Shown here: positions 46,520-56,590 of the stretch, in pieces
Layout: every line of letters starts with the position of its first letter
How positions within the stretch are numbered: position 1 is the stretch's first letter
Assembly (NCBI GenBank): GCA_000961575.1
Contig: LADP01000011.1
Span: 1-62,993 of the forward strand
Length of the DNA stretch: 62,993 nucleotides
Direction of reading: 5' to 3'
Source: Peptococcaceae bacterium BRH_c8a
Lineage (GTDB): Bacteria; Bacillota; Desulfotomaculia; Desulfotomaculales; Desulfallaceae
The notes under the pieces: model-generated
The model's database searches: none
What the model was told of the DNA's origin: nothing
What the model saw: only the letters and a program-made list of their open reading frames with translations
Translations under genes and position numbers: made by a program

Positions 46520-46539
46520 CTGGAAGGATGTGGTGTAAG

Positions 46540-47133
46540 ATGAAGCATATTGAAAAAATTCAAGAGATGCTCGCGCAAAACAACGGAGTAATTACTGCTT
46601 CACAGATCACCGAGAATAATATACCCAGGCATTATCTGAAAAAAATGCTGGACAAGAAGCTCCTGGTTAAAGTTGACCGGGGTATTTATATCAAGCCGGA
46701 AATGTGGGAAGATGAAATGTATATCTTGCAGTATAAGTTTAGCAGGGGCATTTTTTCCCATGAAACGGCCTTGTTTATTCATGGCATGACGGACAGAACA
46801 CCCCTGAAATATGTTATGACGTTTCCCTACGGGTATCATGTCAAATCTCTCAAACAAGAAAACGTTATTATTAGAAAGTCAATAAAAGATTTATATGAAC
46901 TCGGATTGTCCAACGGTATTTCTCCCTATGGGAATCCAATCCGTCTGTACGATGTGGAACGGACGCTTTGTGATATTGTAAAGGGAAACAATACTTGTGA
47001 CATCCAGATCGTTAATCAGGCGATGAAGCATTACGCCAAAATGCCGGAGAAAAATATCACGAAGCTTTTTGACTACGCCGAGAAGGTGCGGGTAAAGCCC
47101 AAAATACTGAACTATATGGAGGTTTTGCTATGA
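46540..47133 (+). CDS. abiEi: AbiEi-type antitoxin and autorepressor
   Basis: ATG at 46540 was chosen because ATG at 46528 is only 3 bases from GGAAGG. 197 aa. The N-terminal winged helix (IEKIQEMLAQNNGVITASQITENNIPRHYLKKML, then GIYIKPE) is the AbiEi_4/DUF6088-like DNA-binding region. The C-terminal domain contains FSHETALFIHGMTDRTP and YDVERTLCDIVKG. Type IV antitoxin that represses transcription and neutralises AbiEii. Overlaps the toxin start by 4 bp. Confidence 0.88.
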   Translation: MKHIEKIQEMLAQNNGVITASQITENNIPRHYLKKMLDKKLLVKVDRGIYIKPEMWEDEMYILQYKFSRGIFSHETALFIHGMTDRTPLKYVMTFPYGYHVKSLKQENVIIRKSIKDLYELGLSNGISPYGNPIRLYDVERTLCDIVKGNNTCDIQIVNQAMKHYAKMPEKNITKLFDYAEKVRVKPKILNYMEVLL

Positions 47134-48002
47134 TAACCAAAAACCCCATGCAATTAAAGGCATATATTAAAAAGATGGCCGCCGAAAAAAATATTTCCGC
47201 CCAGCTTGTCATGCAGAACTACATGCTGGAACGGCTGCTAGAACGTATTTCGGTATCCAAATACCAATCCAATCTGATTTTAAAAGGCGGCTTTTTGATT
47301 TCAGCCATTGTCGGATTGGATACAAGGGCGACGATGGATCTGGATACCACTATCAAAGGCTTTGACGTTACCCATGATACTGTTAGGAGAATTTTTGAGG
47401 AAATAGGTTCCATTCCTTTTGAAGATAATGTCAAATTTGAAGTGCTGAATACTTATGATATACGGGAGGGCGGCGATTATCCGGGAATCAGAGTAGCGAT
47501 GAAGGCAAATTATCCTCCGCTGGCTGTTCCCCTTTCCGTGGACGTTACGACCGGGGACAAAATCACGCCCAGAGAAATAGAATACACCTTCAACCTTTTA
47601 TTTGAGGACAGAACTATCAAAATTATGGCGTACAATCTGGAAACGGTGCTCGCCGAAAAGCTGGAAACCGTAGTGACCCGTGGAATTGCAAATACAAGAC
47701 CAAGAGATTTTTACGATATTTACATATTGTATCAGCTTAGAGGCCATGAATGTGACAAATCGGTATTAAAAAGCGCATTGGTAGAAACCTCGTCTAGACG
47801 CAAAAGCATTGCTGTCATGTCAAATTATAAGACTGTTCTGAATAACATCTCAGAAAGTGAACAAATCAAAGGGTTTTGGAGGAAATACCAAACAGACTTT
47901 GACTATGCGAAGGACATTGATTTTACAGATATCTGTCATTTGATTGTTCAAATTTTTGATGAAATTGGTTTTAATAAATACGACAAAACTCTATCTTTAT
48001 GA
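47130..48002 (+). CDS. abiEii: AbiEii-type nucleotidyltransferase toxin
   Basis: ATG overlaps the abiEi stop (ATGA); 290 aa. The nucleotidyltransferase signature GGFLISAIVGLDTRATMDLDTT lies at about residues 50-71, with the metal-binding DLD. A later conserved segment, MAYNLETVLAEKLETVVTRG...RPRDFYDIYIL, is also characteristic. AbiEii toxins modify nucleic acid (tRNA in studied members) and stop growth upon phage infection. The pair is complete and probably active. Confidence 0.9.
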   Translation: MITKNPMQLKAYIKKMAAEKNISAQLVMQNYMLERLLERISVSKYQSNLILKGGFLISAIVGLDTRATMDLDTTIKGFDVTHDTVRRIFEEIGSIPFEDNVKFEVLNTYDIREGGDYPGIRVAMKANYPPLAVPLSVDVTTGDKITPREIEYTFNLLFEDRTIKIMAYNLETVLAEKLETVVTRGIANTRPRDFYDIYILYQLRGHECDKSVLKSALVETSSRRKSIAVMSNYKTVLNNISESEQIKGFWRKYQTDFDYAKDIDFTDICHLIVQIFDEIGFNKYDKTLSL

Positions 48003-48221: not shown

Positions 48222-48259
48222 AACAAATCCTCCAGAACGGGCATTCTGGAGGATTTGTT
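48222..48259. terminator. Long perfect hairpin bounding region D (left)
   Basis: Perfect 16-bp stem AACAAATCCTCCAGAA/TTCTGGAGGATTTGTT with a 6-nt loop. A near-copy is at 51811-51842. No gene is supported in the rest of 48003-48387. Confidence 0.75.
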
Positions 48260-48387: not shown

Positions 48388-49473
48388 GTGTCTTTGGGAT
48401 TAAGGCTAGCGCAAAAACGTAATGAAGCCAACCTATCGCAGCAGGAATTAGCAGAAAAGATTGGTGTTTCCCCAACGATGATAAGCCTTTATGAGTCTAA
48501 CAGCCGTAAACCATCATACCAAAAATTAGAAGATATAAGCTTTTATCTTAATACTACGGTCAACTTTCTTATGCGTGGTGAGCTAGATATTGGGAATGAC
48601 CCTATAAACCAAAAAATAAATATGGCGCTGAAATATTTAGACCGTAAACAGCGACAAAACATTTGGGAATACATCTGTAGAATTACTGGTGTTGGAAGTT
48701 TTGACTTTGAGTTACCATCGTGTTTTTCACCTGAGGAATGTGCCCAAGGATTAATTCGTAAGTTAAAACAGGACATGTCTATAGATCCATACAACATTGC
48801 AAAAATATTAGATATAGAGATTTTAGGTCTTGAAAATGAATCTGAGTATGAGGGGATACTCCTTAAAAGCCTTCCCAAACCAACAATTCTCATTGATAAA
48901 ACATCAAGAAATGAAGTTGGAAGAAGATTCACTATAGCAATGTTTATAGGGAACCTGGTAATGCCATGGCATTTAAGAAATAGTTTTACTCGGCTTCGTG
49001 GGCAGAAGTCGGTAGAAGTCAATGATCCATTAGATATTGAGAGTAGGGAGTTTGCAACGGCATTATTAATGCCAAAGCAAAGTATTACTAAGGATCGAAA
49101 GAAATTTGAGAGACTGCCCAAGTATGCAGATTTTGAAAATCTTGCCAAAGAGTATAAGGTATCAATTACTACCTATATAAAGAGATTTATCTCGGTGAAC
49201 GAAGTTAGCAATATGGCTTTCCTAAGATGTAAGGATGGCGAAATTCTTGAAGAAAACCAAAAGGGTTTGGAGTTTAAAGTAAAAAAAGTTGTTGACCCAA
49301 ATACCTTTGCTGGTAGATTGATGTTAAATTTACCCGAAGAGCCAACTACAATCTCGGGATATGTTGATGCTAAGTTATGGTTTTCAAACCCTATGGGCTA
49401 CCAAAAAATATTCGAGGAGTCATTTATAGACCCAAAATTTAAAGTTGCCATGACTCTTCTTAAAATAGAATGA
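48388..49473 (+). CDS. XRE regulator fused to degenerate IrrE/ImmA-like domain
   Basis: GTG at 48388 after AAAGGTGG; 361 aa. The HTH is at residues 4-58 (LRLAQKRNEANLSQQELAEKIGVSPTMISLYE). A COG2856-like domain follows near 150-250, but where active ImmA/IrrE proteins have RFTIAHELGH this one reads RFTIAMFIGNLVMPWH, so HExxH is lost. The downstream helix ESREFATALLMPKQSI is retained. Probably a non-proteolytic sensor or repressor. It stands before the ubiquitin-like operon, whose regulation it may serve. Confidence 0.8.
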   Translation: MSLGLRLAQKRNEANLSQQELAEKIGVSPTMISLYESNSRKPSYQKLEDISFYLNTTVNFLMRGELDIGNDPINQKINMALKYLDRKQRQNIWEYICRITGVGSFDFELPSCFSPEECAQGLIRKLKQDMSIDPYNIAKILDIEILGLENESEYEGILLKSLPKPTILIDKTSRNEVGRRFTIAMFIGNLVMPWHLRNSFTRLRGQKSVEVNDPLDIESREFATALLMPKQSITKDRKKFERLPKYADFENLAKEYKVSITTYIKRFISVNEVSNMAFLRCKDGEILEENQKGLEFKVKKVVDPNTFAGRLMLNLPEEPTTISGYVDAKLWFSNPMGYQKIFEESFIDPKFKVAMTLLKIE

Positions 49474-49595: not shown

Positions 49596-49807
49596 CATTA
49601 ATGTGTGTAGTTAAGTGGTGGTCGGTTCTTGGGATACCGAAACCACCCACCTGATTATTGAGTTAAATTAGATTGGCTACCACACCAACCAAATAAAACC
49701 CTAATACCAGGTATTATTCCCATAATATTATATTCGATATGCAAAAGGATATATCCTGCTTCGGGAATATAAATCCCAAAATTCTTACGAATTTTGGAGG
49801 AAGTACT

Positions 49808-50050
49808 ATGAATGATCACGTTAAAGAAACAAGGTATTATGTGAATGGCGAGCCTTATGATGCAATGCGTCATAAGTTGACGGTGCGAGAAATTCTCGAA
49901 ATAGCAGGTCTTACACCAGTTGAAGATTATCGCTTAATTAGGGAGAACGGAAACAAGGAATTTACGGATTATAATGAAGAGGTTCCCATTAGCAAAAATG
50001 AAAGTTTCATGGCTCTATATAAAGGTGTTACACCGACATCTTGGAGGTAA
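49808..50050 (+). CDS. Ubiquitin-like beta-grasp protein (multiubiquitin-type), 80 aa
   Basis: ATG at 49808 after TTGGAGGAAG. Product: YYVNGEPYDAMRHKLTVREILEIAGL, then DYRLIRENGNKEFTDYNEEVPI and FMALYKG. This resembles the bacterial multiubiquitin-type Ubl family that occurs with E1/E2-like genes. There is one beta-grasp domain, and the end is TPTSWR, without a di-glycine. It could need trimming, use a different conjugation chemistry or not be conjugated. First gene of the operon, 6 bp before the E2. Confidence 0.78.
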   Translation: MNDHVKETRYYVNGEPYDAMRHKLTVREILEIAGLTPVEDYRLIRENGNKEFTDYNEEVPISKNESFMALYKGVTPTSWR

Positions 50051-50056
50051 CTACAC

Positions 50057-50398
50057 ATGAATGAAACGTTGGTTAAATACTTTAAGAGTCTTGGATATGT
50101 AGTTGATATCGTGGATGGAACTGACCATCAGAAGTATATTGTAATCCGAGATTACAATATAAAAATTGGGAGTTTTACTGGGAGAAAATGTGATGTTGGG
50201 ATTCTATGGGTGAATACCACTCCATATGTTGCTCCGCCAGCGATACATACAAATCCTGCGTTGGTGACAATGGGGCAAAAGAATACCCAGGCAAGCGGAA
50301 TTGGTACGGGATGGCAATATTGGAGTAGGATTTTAAGGGGAAAGCCTTGTCCTCAAGCTATGATGGCTCATATCTCTACGATTTTCAGTGAGGTGTAA
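50057..50398 (+). CDS. E2-like protein, prokaryotic E2 family E type
   Basis: ATG at 50057; its ribosome-binding site GGAGG overlaps the end of the Ubl gene. 113 aa. The pattern PYVAPPAIHTNP...QASGIGTGWQYWSRILRGKPCPQ...AHI fits the Prok-E2_E family, distant relatives of ubiquitin-conjugating enzymes. Two cysteines are visible (RKCDVG near residue 44 and KPCPQ near 98); I cannot decide which, if any, is catalytic. It would accept the Ubl from the E1 encoded next. Confidence 0.75.
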   Translation: MNETLVKYFKSLGYVVDIVDGTDHQKYIVIRDYNIKIGSFTGRKCDVGILWVNTTPYVAPPAIHTNPALVTMGQKNTQASGIGTGWQYWSRILRGKPCPQAMMAHISTIFSEV

Positions 50399-50399
50399 T

Positions 50400-51794
50400 A
50401 TGATAGATAGAGATTCTTTTGAAAAACTAAATCTATCAATTGCCTTCACCGAAGATTTAGACAGAGAATTAGAAGGGCATCTCAACAAAGGTTCCAGGCA
50501 GGAAGATTTAACTTTCGCCCTCTGGCAACCAAGCCAGGGGGCTACCCGTTACACCGCTATACTTCAGAGATTAATCCTGCCCCGTGAAAATGATAGGATT
50601 CTCCAAGGTAATGTTGCATTCACCTCGGATTATCTCTTACGTGTACTTGAAGAAGCAAAAGAAGGTTATGGCATTGCATTATTACGTAGTCATTTAGGGC
50701 CAGGGTGGCAGATGATGAGCTATGATGATGTAGTTGCTGAAAGAGACAGACTTGCTGCAGTGGTTGCAGGAAAAACAAAGTTACCTTTAGTGGGTTTAAC
50801 GAGAGGTACCGATGGCTATTGGAGTGGTCGTTTTTGGTTAAAGGGATCTTCAAAGGAATACGTTCGAAAATGGGTAAAGAATGTGAGAGTTATTGGGCAA
50901 CAGCTTAGGGTTTCCTTTAATCCACAGTTGATGCCCCCATTAAGTTCGACAGATTCACAAATAGCAACAGTAAGTGTTTGGGGTGAGGAAAATCAATCAA
51001 TTTTATCTCGTCTGCACATTGGTATTATTGGTTTGGGATCAGTCGGGAGTATTGTTGCAGAGGCATTGAGTAGAATAGGTGTTTCTCGAATAACTTTGAT
51101 TGACCATGATAAAATTGAATTAAGAAACCTCGATAGAACTCTTGGAGCTACAATGGAAGATGTAATTAACAAGACTCCTAAGGTTAAGGTAAGCGAGAGG
51201 GTAATTAAAGCATCTCATACATCGCAAAAAATTAATATTTTACCTTTTGAGGGTACATTGCGTAGCCTGGAAGGGTTATCTCATGCACTAGACTGTGATG
51301 TTCTGTTTTCCTGTGTTGATAGGCCATTTCCCCGACATATGTTGAATTCCTTGGCATACGGGCATTTAATACCTGTAATAGATGGGGGAATAAAAGTAAA
51401 AGTAAATAACCACGGGAAGCTATTGCATGCTGACTGGAGGATCCATACTGTTGGCCCTGGGAGGGCGTGTATGATTTGCTTGGGCGCCTTAAATATGGTT
51501 GAAGTTGCCTTGGATATGGATGGTAAGTTAGATGATCCTGTATATATCCAAGGGTTGGGTCCGGAATTAAATCCTTTATTACAAAGGCAAAATGTTTTTC
51601 CGTTTAGCTTAAGCGTTGCCGCTCATGAGGTGCTTCATTTGATGGGATTAATTGCAGGCAACCCAAGGATAGGAGGCATTGGTCCTCAATTTTATCACTG
51701 TTATCCTGGGATGATGGAGGCTAAACATAGTACGCAATGTAGTTGTGATTGCGAGTATAATAAGTTAATAGGTCAGGTTAATCAAGTGATTTAG
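50400..51794 (+). CDS. E1-like (ThiF) enzyme with N-terminal JAB-like domain
   Basis: ATG at 50400 after GAGGTG, 1 bp after the E2 stop; 464 aa. The C-terminal half is a ThiF/E1 adenylation domain: GIIGLGSVGSIVAEALSRIG near residue 208, LIDHDKIELRNLDRTLG, VLFSCVDRP and a terminal cysteine cluster CSCDC. The N-terminal 170 residues resemble a JAB/MPN isopeptidase: LLRSHLGPGWQMMSYDD near residue 95 matches HSHPGxGxxxxSxxD, except that the first histidine is Arg and the proline is Leu. The isopeptidase may be inactive. Together with Ubl and E2 it forms a minimal conjugation pathway. Confidence 0.82.
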   Translation: MIDRDSFEKLNLSIAFTEDLDRELEGHLNKGSRQEDLTFALWQPSQGATRYTAILQRLILPRENDRILQGNVAFTSDYLLRVLEEAKEGYGIALLRSHLGPGWQMMSYDDVVAERDRLAAVVAGKTKLPLVGLTRGTDGYWSGRFWLKGSSKEYVRKWVKNVRVIGQQLRVSFNPQLMPPLSSTDSQIATVSVWGEENQSILSRLHIGIIGLGSVGSIVAEALSRIGVSRITLIDHDKIELRNLDRTLGATMEDVINKTPKVKVSERVIKASHTSQKINILPFEGTLRSLEGLSHALDCDVLFSCVDRPFPRHMLNSLAYGHLIPVIDGGIKVKVNNHGKLLHADWRIHTVGPGRACMICLGALNMVEVALDMDGKLDDPVYIQGLGPELNPLLQRQNVFPFSLSVAAHEVLHLMGLIAGNPRIGGIGPQFYHCYPGMMEAKHSTQCSCDCEYNKLIGQVNQVI

Positions 51795-51810
51795 ACTTAT
51801 TGAAACAAAC

Positions 51811-51842
51811 GAATCCTCCGGAATTAACGTTCTGGAGGATTC
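51811..51842. terminator. Long hairpin bounding region D (right)
   Basis: Stem GAATCCTCCGGAA/TTCTGGAGGATTC (one G-U pair), loop TTAACG. Its core matches the hairpin at 48222-48259. Directly follows the E1 gene. Confidence 0.75.
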
Positions 51843-52113: not shown

Positions 52114-53291
52114 GACAAAATAGGTCCGCGAATTTGTTCTAGAACACCTGGCGTTTACACCGTAAAGCTTAAAGTGTGGGACAATCAGAATAATACCTCA
52201 ACAGCGACGAAAAGCATCTCCATCTCGGATAAAGCCCCGCCGCCTGAACCACCAGTGCCGCCCGAACCGGAAAATATTCCTCCGGTGGCCCGGTTTGACA
52301 TGGTGCCGGAGGCTTCGCCCGGCGTATCCGTACCCGTTAAAAACAGGTCTTATGACCCGGACGGCGAGATTGTATCGGTAAACTGGGCTGTATCTCCGGT
52401 GGCCAATTCAAGCCTGGGTGACACAGGAGGAAATATTAATTTTGCAGAACCGGGCACATATAAGGTTACGTTAACGGTGGAAGACGACAGGGGAGACACT
52501 GATACGGTCCAAAAGACCATCAGTATTGTCAACGAATCTCCGGTGGCCCGGATTTCCATACCCACCACCGTATTCCAGGGAGAAGACGTGGAGATCGAGA
52601 GCAATTCCTACGACCCGGACGGAGAGATTTCTGAATACACCTGGAGCGTTACGCCTGCCGGAATGGTAGGCACCCTTTCCGGTGAAAGAGGCACGGTCTA
52701 TTTTGATGAGCCGGGTACCTATACGGTCCAATTGACAGTAAAAGACAGGTTCGGCTCAACCGGTACTGTGACCAAAAACCTGGAAGTTAAACCTGCCGTA
52801 CCTACGGCCTTTTTCCGCTGGACCGGCACACCCAAAGAAAACCGGAAAATAGTCTTTGATTCCTCGGAAAGCTACGGTTCCGGACGCTATCCGGTGGACT
52901 TTGGTTGCAACCAATGGGAGTTTATTCCCCCTGCTGGGGTGCCTGTTGATGCAGTTAAAATTGTTTATTCACCGGATTTGAAATCTCGGCAAGTGCTGTT
53001 CAAGGAGCCGGGGAACTACCGCATCCGCCTGGCTGTCAAGAACACCAAAGGGACGGATTCGGAGTGGTATGAACAGGTCATCACCGTTTACCCAGACCAG
53101 CCGCCGGTGGCCGATTTTTACACCGTTCAGACTATAACCCGCGATCCGGCTAATGCTAATACGGCCACTATTCTTCTGATGGACCGTTCCTATTCCCCTG
53201 ACGGAGACCTTATTTACCGGCGGGAATGGAACTACCGCTACGACAGCAACAACGACGGCAGTTTCTCTGATGAGTCTTGGGTTACCTTGGA
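52114..53291 (+). pseudogene. PKD-repeat surface protein, 5'-truncated left fragment
   Basis: The frame opens after a stop at 52111, and recognisable sequence begins near 52144 (TPGVYTVKLKVWDNQ). It holds at least two typical PKD domains (PPVARFDMVP...SYDPDGEI...EPGTYKVTLTVEDDRGD and ...ESPVARISIP...SYDPDGEI...GTYTVQLTVKDRFG) and weaker ones. The start codon and signal peptide are missing, so the 5' part was lost or separated by an earlier event at about 52114-52144. At 53291 the frame enters the transposon; the original frame continues at 60378. Confidence 0.85.
53284..53291. repeat. Direct repeat flanking the Tn7/Mu-like transposon (left)
   Basis: ACCTTGGA here and at 60370-60377. Up to 8 bp are duplicated; the true duplication may be shorter (5-8 bp). 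Confidence 0.75.
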
Positions 53292-53488
53292 TGTAAAACG
53301 TCACATTGTAGCAATAACGAACGTCAAATTATTACTAACGGCTCTATTTAAAATACAGCAAATTAATTCTAAGAACGCAAGGTAATAATAATTAAAATGC
53401 ACTTTATTACAATAATCAGAGTAACTTATTCATCAATTGACAAAACAAAGAGACCGCAATTGCGATCCCATTATGTTTAGCAGATGTG

Positions 53489-53872
53489 TTATTTTGCAAG
53501 CCCTCCAAGTAAATTTCTGTTAAATCGTATCATTATTGCATTCCCAGCAAGCAGCAGGTTATGATTATCAAGATTACCTAGTAAAGATCTTGGTGTCGTA
53601 TAACTGTCTGACCAACCATTATAAAGATTAAAACCCAGCCTTATTAACGACCCCATACTTGCTGAAAAATCAACATCAGCATCATCAAGACAAGTACATA
53701 TGCGGTGCTCACGGGAATTATAGATGAACCTGCGTTTTCTATAAAGATCATCATTACCCGTAATGATATAAAACAAGCTGGCACGTTCCGAATCATAGGG
53801 GGACATATTATCCTCAAGCATCATACCTAGAAAGCGTTCCTTATGTGCAGAGCTAATAAAATATTTTTCCAA
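53489..53872 (-). CDS. Transposon accessory protein (DUF6075/DUF2538-like), 127 aa
   Basis: TTG at 53872, 9 bases after AGGAGG. Small soluble protein: EKYFISSAHKERFLGMMLED near the start, ASLFYIITGNDDLYRK and SASMGSLIRLGFNLYNGW. Proteins of this type are encoded last in Firmicutes transposons of this kind. The role in transposition is unknown to me. It lies 13 bp after the ATPase gene. Confidence 0.65.
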   Translation of the reverse strand: MEKYFISSAHKERFLGMMLEDNMSPYDSERASLFYIITGNDDLYRKRRFIYNSREHRICTCLDDADVDFSASMGSLIRLGFNLYNGWSDSYTTPRSLLGNLDNHNLLLAGNAIMIRFNRNLLGGLAK

Positions 53873-53885
53873 TTCTATTAACCTC

Positions 53886-54689
53886 CTAAATCAGTTCAAT
53901 TTCGTTGACAGCTGCAAGAATGATGTCCGTATCAATTGTCTGTTTATTGTGCTGGGTCCCAATCATGAGTGCCTTTGTGAGAATAAGATTAAGCTTCCTT
54001 ATAGAACCTCCAGAGCTACTATAAGCAGAAAGCATGGCATTCTCATTCATTATGGACGGAGAAGCTCCAGCAAGTATGAACCGATTTTTTATGTATTCGA
54101 CTGCTTCTTTTTCCTGAATACCTTCAAAATTATAACTGATGATAATTCTCTGTCTAAGAGCTTCATGAGGTTGTCTCATGAGTATGTTATTAAACACAGG
54201 TTGTCCAAGCAAAATAAGAGAAAATCGGCTCTTTGAATCCATAGAAAAGTTAGTCAGCATCTTGAAATCCCTGAGGATATCACTGTTTAAGTATTGTGCT
54301 TCATCCAGGCAAACTATGTGATGGATTTTTTTACTCATGCTTATGTTCTCGAAATACTCCTGAATGCTCTTAAACATTACCGATTTCTTATATTGCACCT
54401 CAAGGCCTAGACAACTGCAAAGTTGCCGGTAAAACTCGGTGGTAGTGATGGTGGAAAGACATATATAAGTGAACTTAGTAATATTGGGATTAAGCTTACT
54501 GCTAAAACAACGCAGGGAAAATGTCTTTCCCTGACCAGCTCCAGCGGTAAATACGCCAATTCCAGGATTGTTTTTAAGATAATCAAGACGCCCATTCATT
54601 TCCTTCATGTCTTCTGTAAGAAATGCGTCCTTTGTGGCTATATCTTTGTCAAATGGATTAAAAGACATGCCATAGTAATTAATTGACAT
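53886..54689 (-). CDS. AAA ATPase, transposition partner (TnsC/TniB/ExeA-like)
   Basis: ATG at 54689 with GGAGGTG upstream; 267 aa. Starts YYGMSFNPFDKDI, then Walker A FTAGAGQGKTFS at about residues 47-56, Walker B HHIVCLDEAQYL near 125 and sensor LILLGQP near 160. ATPases of this class choose the target and activate a DDE transposase. Overlaps the transposase end by 11 bp. Confidence 0.83.
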   Translation of the reverse strand: MSINYYGMSFNPFDKDIATKDAFLTEDMKEMNGRLDYLKNNPGIGVFTAGAGQGKTFSLRCFSSKLNPNITKFTYICLSTITTTEFYRQLCSCLGLEVQYKKSVMFKSIQEYFENISMSKKIHHIVCLDEAQYLNSDILRDFKMLTNFSMDSKSRFSLILLGQPVFNNILMRQPHEALRQRIIISYNFEGIQEKEAVEYIKNRFILAGASPSIMNENAMLSAYSSSGGSIRKLNLILTKALMIGTQHNKQTIDTDIILAAVNEIELI

Positions 54690-55165
54690 CTACGCTATCA
54701 CCTCCATAGTTGATAGCATAAGTATTGTTACGCTTGGTTTTACCATTCTCAACTTTGTTAGTTTTACGTATTAGGTACTTTACTTCATCCTCAAGTATGT
54801 AAGCATTTTCCATATCCCCAGGCAAATAGCGTATCTCCACACTGCATCGTATAAACTGCATGGGAACATCATACAATATCTTGTCTATTACAACAGTTGC
54901 ATCATTTTTTACACGCCTTTTAATACGGTTCATGAAGCAAGTATTAAGCCAATCAGGACTTACTGGCATTTTTACCCGAGAAATATCCCCCAAATAACGA
55001 TCTGACGGTGTCTGCCCAGTAGCGCTGTGTACTGTTGTGTTATGCTTCCTAATATATTCAAAAAGTTTAGCATTTAGCATTTCAAGTGATGTGATTTCTG
55101 TAGTATCAAGTACATTTAAGAAACGATTACGGAGGGTTCTGAAGTTCCTTTCTATTTTACCTTTG
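54679..55165 (-). pseudogene. DDE transposase, C-terminal fragment
   Basis: Continues the transposase of 58650-59432. The codons at the break give KG then KIERNFRTLRNRF; the E of KIER is the expected catalytic glutamate of the rve (DDE) domain. A beta-barrel-like C-terminal domain follows (VVIDKILYDVPMQFI...YLPGDMENAYIL). It is separated from the first two catalytic aspartates by 3.5 kb of RIT element, so the enzyme is inactive as it stands. Confidence 0.85.
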
Positions 55166-55192
55166 TAATGTAAAGCTTTACATTACAAAGGT
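55159..55192. repeat. Perfect 34-bp palindrome at the left RIT junction
   Basis: Each 17-bp arm reads ACCTTTGTAATGTAAAG inward. The outer 7 bp of each arm equal the target/ITR edge sequence ACCTTTG, and the centre is TAATGTAAAG facing its complement. Present only at the left junction. Confidence 0.85.
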
Positions 55193-55278
55193 TATGTATA
55201 GTAAATGATAATGTAAAGTAAGTTTATGAATCCCTTCTCTTTCCTGGAATTTTTATGGATTTACTTTACATTATCATA
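55186..55278 (+). repeat. RIT left inverted terminal repeat (93 bp)
   Basis: Nearly identical to the reverse complement of 58564-58656. Each repeat itself contains an internal inverted pair (ATGATAATGTAAAGTAA near one end, TTACTTTACATTATCA near the other), the design expected for tyrosine recombinase binding. Confidence 0.9.
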
Positions 55279-55327
55279 CTCCTATAGTTAAGGTAGTCAA
55301 ATTTACTATGGGAGGGAGTATTGTATA

Positions 55328-56590
55328 ATGGATATCAATAAATCTATCGATACGTTTGATGTGATGGCGGCTGATTTGTTATCCTATCTCAGTCGGATAG
55401 GATTTAAGAAAACAGCAATCAACAGATACCGTAATTCCATCAACCGAATCAAAACTCACATGGAGCAGGAAGGGAAAATAGCTTTTAATTCAGAAACCTG
55501 TTCCCGTTTTGTAGAGCATTTAACTGGTAATAGTGCTTATCAGGATTTAAACAGACGGGAAAAAGATGAAATCCGATGTGCCAATGTGGTTTTAGAATAT
55601 CAGCTTACTGGGAGTATAGCCTTCCGTACAATCCGCAAAAATAAGACCTTATATGGAAAGATAGGTTCCACCATATCAGAGTATCTTTCATACCGAAAAT
55701 CTAGAAACATCTCAATTAGTACTTTGGAGGGCAATCAACTTTATCTGCAACGTCTTCAGGATTTTCTTGAAAACCACGGGATCACAGATATCAAAAATAT
55801 ATCACAGTCTGATATCCTGTCGTTTATCAAAAGTCTTAGCTTTTATTCCAAAGGAACCATCCACTGTACATTGTCTGCTCTGCGGGGTTTCTTTAGATAT
55901 CTCCACGACATTGGAATGCTAAAGGTGGATTGGTCTTATCTGGTTCCGAAAGATGGCTATAAAAAAGAGGTAAAGCTGCCTACCACATACGAAAAGGATG
56001 AAATAGAAAGCATTCTTAAAGCTGTTGACCGGGGTAACCCGAAAGGAAAGCGTGACTATGCCATAATCCTTCTAGCTGCCCGGTTAGGGCTGCGGTCTTC
56101 GGATATTTGCAAAATGAAATTTGAAAATATTCTCTGGGAACAAAATTTGATTGTTCTTACTCAACAAAAGACCGCTAAACGTATTGAACTGCCTCTTCTT
56201 CCGGAGATAGGCAACTCAATTATTGATTACCTGAAGTACGCACGCCCACATTCTGAGTCACCGTATATATTCCTCCATGTAAACCCCCGTTATGAAAGAC
56301 TTCAGGAACCAACAATTCATAGCATCGTATCCCAGTATATGAGGCAGGCCGGCATTCATAATATTAATCAAAAAAAACATGGCCCTCATGCGCTTCGCCA
56401 CAGCCTAGCTGGATTTCTCTTGGAAAAAAAGACACCTCTGCCCGTAATTTCAGAAGTCCTTGGACATACCAATACGGAAAGCACAAAAACATATCTTAGA
56501 ATAGATATGGAATCTTTACGGCAATGTGCCTTGAAGGTACCCTCTCTATATACACCGCTTTATGAGAGAGGGAGGTACCGAAATGATTGA
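55328..56590 (+). CDS. ritA: RIT tyrosine recombinase A
   Basis: ATG at 55328 with GGGAGGG upstream; 420 aa. Two SAM-like N-terminal domains (about residues 1-90 and 110-205), then the catalytic domain: Arg in ARLGLRSSDICKM, HxxR in HALRHSLAGF, His in LGHTNTEST and Tyr in KTYLRID. All of the R-H-R-H-Y set is present. The extra N-terminal region makes it longer than XerC/D, as is usual for RitA. Overlaps ritB by 8 bp. Confidence 0.9.
   Translation: MDINKSIDTFDVMAADLLSYLSRIGFKKTAINRYRNSINRIKTHMEQEGKIAFNSETCSRFVEHLTGNSAYQDLNRREKDEIRCANVVLEYQLTGSIAFRTIRKNKTLYGKIGSTISEYLSYRKSRNISISTLEGNQLYLQRLQDFLENHGITDIKNISQSDILSFIKSLSFYSKGTIHCTLSALRGFFRYLHDIGMLKVDWSYLVPKDGYKKEVKLPTTYEKDEIESILKAVDRGNPKGKRDYAIILLAARLGLRSSDICKMKFENILWEQNLIVLTQQKTAKRIELPLLPEIGNSIIDYLKYARPHSESPYIFLHVNPRYERLQEPTIHSIVSQYMRQAGIHNINQKKHGPHALRHSLAGFLLEKKTPLPVISEVLGHTNTESTKTYLRIDMESLRQCALKVPSLYTPLYERGRYRND

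Follow-up and report, generated by a model that had tools for sequence, protein, structure and literature searches.

That ubiquitin-like tags end in glycine is almost textbook knowledge, and the Bub papers are said to describe oxyester E1/E2 intermediates in a bacterial version of this chemistry. The proteins BubA, BubB and BubCD of Citrobacter (PDB 9ea4, 9ea5, 9ea8, 9eae, 9eav and 9d59) are the nearest solved kin of the locus described here, a three-gene operon for a ubiquitin-like protein (Ubl), an E2-fold protein and a JAB-E1 fusion in Peptococcaceae bacterium BRH_c8a (contig LADP01000011.1, positions 1 to 62,993; “the window” hereafter means this whole stretch of 62,993 nt). Operons of type 6e encode one to three Ubl domains and a JAB domain N-terminal to E1, sometimes with a Cys-less E2-like protein in between (PMC1779556), a layout that the window operon shares; the type 6e E2 was taken as catalytically inactive (Iyer, Burroughs and Aravind 2006, PMC1779556), and the extra protein of these operons (C-x3-C ... 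H-x2-C) was not seen at the window operon. According to the available part of PMC1779556, the new Ubl families, except the phage-tail one and one other, have no conserved C-terminal glycine, and we infer that type 6e is among them. In the cyclic oligonucleotide-based antiphage signaling system (CBASS), E1/E2 chemistry likewise acts on a C-terminal Gly or Ala: the final residue of 1,583 cGAS proteins accompanied by Cap2 and Cap3 is one or the other, a Gly-to-Ala change kept some conjugation, and Cap3 reverses conjugation whereas a Cap3 mutant raised it (PMC10097602, in the portion at hand). Unlike the window Ubl, the CBASS target is a cyclase without a beta-grasp fold, forming a thioester with Cap2 (same portion of PMC10097602). 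Bil operons (BilABCD) also unite Ubl, E1, E2 and JAB, but their E2 has a catalytic Cys (CEHH motif), their Ubl has two domains and their JAB is a separate protein (BilC) that exposes a C-terminal Gly (PMC11354881, available text); in the window the E2 has no conserved Cys and the JAB is fused to E1.

The window operon resembles Bub in its three components and their order, in its E1 site residues, in its JAMM residues (the first zinc His of the JAB half excepted, which the window lacks) and in having an upstream regulator of a type known from immune operons. Unlike the Citrobacter operon, it has separate Ubl and E2 genes and a single Ubl domain; moreover, a DUF6527 gene was not found, and the branch to which the operon belongs has Ubl tails ending on Ala or Ser, not Gly. 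We consider it fairly probable that the locus is a Bub (type 6e) conjugation operon with a stress-type regulator, from an Ala/Ser-ended branch in which DUF6527 was not found. The Bub/6e kind is already known and the Ala/Ser-ended branch may be the new part: no such DUF6527-less branch was described among the literature matches listed, and the main Bub papers, which lay outside that search, may describe it.

The operon itself, at 49808-51794, is confirmed (Table 1). Gaps of 6 bases and 1 base separate the Ubl from the E2 gene and the E2 from the JAB-E1 gene, and the same gene order recurs in distant relatives, so it is not due to chance. Pfam ThiF matched the JAB-E1 protein with 96.8 bits (cut-off 28.1). 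Multi_ubiq and Prok-E2_E stayed below their cut-offs with the Ubl (17.6 vs 24.5 bits) and E2-like protein (22.9 vs 25 bits), respectively, and these two assignments are therefore based on relatives and models; NCBIfam had no match for either protein. At E 1, Prok-JAB gave no match to the window JAB-E1; among 11 aligned E1s it recognized two, the better at E 0.0038. The best solved sequence match of the JAB-E1 protein was BubCD (E 2.7e-25, over residues 15-355), with ∼24% E1 identity to Citrobacter/Enterobacter plasmid copies. An in-frame Ubl start upstream at 49739 was ruled out, as a GGAGG site (judged by eye) fits 49808. An earlier note, made from the DNA letters, had read the genes as a multiubiquitin-type Ubl, an E2-like protein and a ThiF E1 with a JAB-like region, akin to Bub-type operons; this is borne out by the kinship to all three Bub proteins and by structure prediction, in which the first protein is beta-grasp (modestly) and the second E2-like.

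Few E1 relatives are close, with 65% and 57% identity in a Bacillota and a Chloroflexi metagenome-assembled genome (MAG). At the nearest locus, L001, the E1 gene stands alone at a contig edge (loci and genomes are given L and G numbers). Matches were sparse in genome collections: in the window's phylum only its own E1 was found among 398 genomes (at 1e-30); the window's order (113 genomes, 1e-20) yielded the window itself and one distant case, while none of three congeners of the host matched at 1e-20. The phylum of L001 gave two matches in 299 genomes at 1e-20 (a distant genome besides that of L001 itself), and that of the Chloroflexi relative five in 301 at 1e-25, one genome having two copies and one (L024/L032) being distant. 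Among 110 genomes of G478's class only G478 itself and a truncated match (L051) were recovered, and among 24 of G548's order only G548. One Chloroflexi MAG (G399) carries two diverged operon copies, L002 and L031. The best ten of 159 plasmid records were actinobacterial with 37-42% identity, and nine of them (H1-H10 without H7) were used. Phage records gave two matches covering 24% of the query, and viral contigs were of little or no help.

In a tree of 30 E1 sequences (rooted for drawing only), the window falls within a bacterial group of 16 rows (100/99), which three haloarchaeal plasmid rows join (100/99); a separate group of 11 rows (100/99) includes L037, which is closely related to the solved BubCD (845 bits). 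The window operon is thus a divergent Bub/6e member from a well-supported branch, in which the order Ubl, E2, JAB-E1 is kept (for L008 and L029 the E2 was taken from frame translations). Four further loci (L052, L053, L054 and L056) were assigned to the classic Bub side by similarity and gene content and L055 to the archaeal loci, all five being absent from the tree and from the 30-E1 alignment. Counts leave out L051, L057 (operon broken by insertion elements), weak own-genome matches (L004-L006) and duplicates or shorter forms of other loci (L019-L027 and L033). The haloarchaeal plasmid loci L009, L015, L043 and L055 show the same Ubl, E2-fold and JAB-E1 layout, and DUF6527 was not found in them.

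The Ubl tails set the branch apart. Counted from the last conserved aromatic residue or Leu (an anchor chosen by eye), classic tails have Gly at +10 in 12 of 15 loci, and in 11 of those the open reading frame (ORF) runs on, seven times into the E2 domain; the exceptions are L035 (Gly at +9) and L044 and L056 (ending on Ser at +9). In L037 the +10 Gly is residue 229, the last one of the solved BubA chains; solved BubB chains start at or just before residue 230 in the same numbering. Among the 15 bacterial branch members with a known Ubl, all but the window have an ORF that stops exactly at +10 or +11: nine at +10, all on Ala, and five at +11 (two Ala, three Ser). By this count, the branch gene stops about where classic BubA ends once separated from E2. 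Haloarchaeal tails end at +10 or +11 as well, three on Ser and one (L055) on Val. The window is the sole bacterial branch member with an overhang, its tail reading KGVTPTS with Thr at +10 and Ser at +11, followed by WR. L044 and L056, on mycobacterial plasmids outside the branch, encode longer multi-domain Ubls, have no DUF6527 that we found, and possibly represent an independent loss of the terminal Gly.

The earlier note had stressed that the Ubl lacks a di-glycine end. The lack is real, though not peculiar to this copy, because it is the rule throughout the branch, classic Bub has a single Gly and CBASS cGAS is used via Gly or Ala. The note had also suggested trimming by an outside protease, and here only the WR dipeptide stands as an overhang relative to the branch. 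That the JAB half or another protease cuts the Ubl back to an inner Gly (the KG of the window) would accord with a Gly at +6 in the window, L002 and L028 and with classic tails, which mostly end or are cut at Gly; we hold this to be improbable, as seven of 15 branch tails (L029, L030, L007, L011, L012, L038 and L039) contain no Gly, so that such trimming is not general, and an end at +6 would fall 4 residues short of the classic one at +10.

We take DUF6527 to be a protease. With a profile built from ten classic-locus proteins, it was detected in 10 of 15 classic loci but in none of the 20 from the branch, with the window searched over its full length (the L002 and L031 contigs end soon after E1). 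Four of these ten proteins also match Pfam PF20137, and a PDB search with DUF6527 returned no match. In the available part of PMC12687455, Bub operons are described as coming complete with a specific protease.

In the E1 half, positions 211, 216, 235, 237, 243, 246, 261 and 307 are identical in all 30 aligned E1s, so the nucleotide-site residues whose absence from homologues would have told against the earlier reading are in place, and the purely non-covalent system that it had also entertained becomes less likely. The JAMM residues E35, H98, S107 and D110 are likewise identical in 30 of 30; at position 96 the window alone has Arg, and the other 29 have His. Zinc-site integrity is thus kept by the rest of the branch and lost in the window copy; the replaced first histidine reported earlier is genuine, but this copy alone carries the substitution. 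The other 15 bacterial branch E1s share 64 invariant columns, of which the window keeps 63, H96R being the sole deviation. Among those 15 members, six have no such private deviation, seven have one, one has two and one has eight; a single change is therefore ordinary in number (9 of 15 have at least one) and striking for its place at a zinc ligand. Both H96R and the WR overhang were seen in one assembly only. Judged from the altered motif, the window JAB half probably cannot remove the tag, and the copy may be unable to mature it.

Two accounts of the window copy deserve weight. A decaying or disarmed operon, whose tag is neither matured nor removed while its frames are not yet broken, is a serious possibility that we would place somewhat short of even. 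Both H96R and WR touch C-terminal tag chemistry, the congeners are without a match, and the stretch just downstream holds a Mu-type transposase end, an AAA ATPase and a phage-type integrase; set against this, intact frames and the 63 retained residues look like recent selection, and one private change is, as noted, ordinary in number. Alternatively, the copy may work one way, a host carboxypeptidase taking off Trp-Arg and the JAB-dead fusion then making permanent conjugates, an idea that we find possible but rather doubtful. Here the kept E1 site and the effect of the CBASS Cap3 mutant speak in its favor, as does BubCD D104A: it is altered at the residue aligned with window D110, yet by the structure titles solved complexes of it exist with both BubA and BubB, and partner binding can therefore survive the loss of the JAMM site. 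No trimming enzyme was identified, though, and the adjacent ImmA-like protein lacks HExxH.

The E2-fold protein shares its motif with the rest of the branch. All 12 aligned branch E2s have W86, S90 and R91, and all 5 aligned classic ones have the W and S; no Cys is invariant among the 12. Cys as a general E2 nucleophile was rejected, since neither C45 nor C98 of the window is conserved. A strict motif pattern found 22 of 31 domains and a loose one 32 of 32; because the loose one also matched elsewhere in several, conservation was taken from the alignments. Profile-profile comparison linked branch and classic E2s (88.7% probability, E 2.6e-06). The best of five models (two-sequence alignment; predicted local distance difference test [pLDDT] 70.5, the others 64.9 to 49.1) aligned with Citrobacter BubB (9eae_C) at Z 10.4 over 109 residues and 3.2 A, the next row reaching Z 7.2, and the listed rows were titled E2 or ubiquitin E2 variant (UEV) structures or complexes with them. 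At the level of the model, the middle gene thus has an E2 fold like that of BubB. PDB searches with the window E2 and with the E2 profile were of little or no help, and a plasmid search with the window E2 gave no matches. A non-covalent or sulfur-carrier (ThiS/MoaD-like) system instead of protein conjugation would suit the ThiF family match and the missing classic E2 Cys; we judge it very improbable given an E2-fold partner with an invariant Ser, a JAB fused to E1 whose JAMM residues are kept elsewhere, and Bub proteins as nearest solved kin.

Evidence for the Ubl fold is modest but consistent, and the protein is probably a beta-grasp with multi-ubiquitin kinship. Five of 10 branch Ubls match Pfam Multi_ubiq at E ≤0.1 (best 5.2e-05), and a profile matches multi-ubiquitin chains (best 5.3e-05), while a PDB search with the window sequence was of little or no help. 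In structure comparison the window model (pLDDT 73.4) was nearest to three multi-ubiquitin proteins (Z 5.1, 5.0 and 4.9), followed by an unrelated protein (Z 4.3) and, fifth, BubA (9ea8_B, 155-229; Z 4.2), model residues 9-74 aligning to BubA 160-226; values of Z under 8 are below the tool's safe level and may reflect a common arrangement.

In the mechanism that we propose, the E1 half would adenylate the Ubl C-terminus, the Ubl would move to the conserved E2 Ser as an oxyester, not a thioester, and would then be placed on targets, from which the JAB half would take it off. In the window copy, with its JAB having lost the first zinc ligand and its Ubl carrying two extra residues, reversal is expected to fail, and an outside enzyme would have to trim the tail for maturation; this copy may be inert. 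More tentatively, and with less than even confidence, we suggest a prokaryotic Ubl lineage in which the terminal Gly is replaced by Ala or Ser and the finished end is encoded directly, spanning Bacillota, Chloroflexota, actinobacterial plasmids and probably haloarchaeal plasmids, with the window as a natural deubiquitinase-dead variant that would tag irreversibly.

Several observations weigh against assigning the locus to an Ala/Ser-ended Bub branch with a stress-type regulator. The ties between DUF6527 and maturation are loose: the classic loci L016, L032 and L035 have a Ubl extension past the Gly and no DUF6527 in the stretch examined, and L041 has DUF6527 and no extension; because of the first three of these, our confidence in this assignment and in a lineage with a directly encoded Ala/Ser end is lower. 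The tail rule is crossed by the Ser-ended classic loci L044 and L056 and by the archaeal Val end of L055, and in CBASS a Gly-to-Ser change abolished conjugation (PMC10097602, portion at hand), which speaks against the Ser-ended members working in that way. After the E1 CxxC, Cys, Ser or Thr is kept in at least 15 of 16 sequences only at 403 (S/A/C), 447 and 451, the latter two probably part of a zinc site, which leaves no evident E1 nucleophile. On the modelling side, the Z values of the Ubl fall below the safe level, pLDDT ranges from about 49 to 70 across the five E2 models, and Foldseek returned nothing under E 0.001 for either model, though BubA stood second in the Ubl list and the first rows for the E2 model were E2s. 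The upstream regulator is fitted nearly as well by RmrA models (up to 60.0 bits) as by PADLOC capP (69.8 bits), and where the zinc motif HExxH is expected it reads MFIGN.

An Ala/Ser-ended lineage complete with E1, E2 and deubiquitinase would, if true, offer a direct test of what an E1 requires at the tip of its tag, and would probe when maturation is needed and how far a Ser-based E2 tolerates a side chain there. Where the Ubl and E2 genes are separate a stop codon can make the mature end, which suggests how processing could become dispensable.

Table 1. Features of the operon and its surroundings (positions in the window; a dot marks features given without strand)
Feature	Position	Strand	Remarks
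Left hairpin	48222..48259	.	16-nt perfect arms; proposed outer cassette limit
Fused helix-turn-helix (HTH) + ImmA/IrrE-like regulator (CapH-CapP-like)	48388..49473	+	ORF from 48340; start 48388 judged by eye
Perfect 9-bp inverted repeat	49776..49797	.	CCAAAATTC-TTAC-GAATTTTGG; just before Ubl ribosome site
Ubl gene (BubA-like, one beta-grasp domain)	49808..50050	+	80 aa; C-terminal end TPTSWR
WR codons	50042-50047	+	Also hold GGAGG of E2 gene
E2-fold gene (BubB-like)	50057..50398	+	113 aa; conserved W86, S90, R91; no conserved Cys
Conserved E2 Ser codon (S90)	50324-50326	+	Motif W86, S90, R91
JAB-E1 fusion gene (BubCD-like)	50400..51794	+	464 aa, RSHLGPGWQMMSYDD; E1 part from residue ∼186
H96R codon	50685-50687	+	First zinc ligand of JAMM
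Right hairpin, terminator-like	51811..51842	+	Similar to left hairpin

The regulator gene also matched PADLOC capH (25.7 bits) and, below its cut-off of 22, Pfam Peptidase_M78 (20.2 bits). CapH/CapP pairs combine an HTH repressor with an active ImmA-type protease, and the window protein departs from this in its zinc motif. Two relatives from the same order (L046 and L047; 113 order genomes, 1e-15) have no HExxH either, reading MLLGH and ILLGH, and this fused HTH-ImmA-like subfamily is, from its motifs, probably not an active protease; the ImmA-like neighbor was rejected as a Ubl protease for the same lack in all three. Leaving aside the window and L001, 10 of the 18 branch loci have HTH/ImmA genes upstream by annotation or Pfam. 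Reading the ORFs of L029, L030 and L031, with no family scan, revealed none, the one candidate scanned in L038 had no family, and the four archaeal loci had none by annotation. The count fits the 219 of 544 Bub operons that carry CapW or CapH+CapP, as given in the available part of PMC13373217, where Bub is also stated not to have been shown to protect against phage. On the Rhodococcus plasmids L011, L012 and L039, a divergent regulator adjoins the Ubl operon, annotated as a HigA-type antitoxin with an ImmA-like part and paired with a RelE/ParE-type toxin.

That regulator and operon form one cassette between two hairpins is supported, not proved, by the likeness of the hairpins: a 34-nt unit of the left one is 79% identical to 51808-51841, and the exact stem pattern derived from both had no third match in the 4.17-Mb assembly. 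Terminator-like hairpins are no commoner in the region than in shuffled sequence (4 vs 3.1). The inverted repeat before the Ubl gene, a single genome site with up to one mismatch allowed, is a candidate operator or translational hairpin.

To the right of the operon, 52174-56590 holds a PKD-repeat ORF, the AAA ATPase, a C-terminal piece of the Mu-type transposase and the phage-type integrase, and is a mobile-element border. The defence-gene setting proposed in the earlier note stands insofar as an AbiEi/AbiEii toxin-antitoxin pair (46528-48002, strong PADLOC matches) directly borders the cassette on its left; at L014, too, the relative operon has an AbiEii-type gene nearby.

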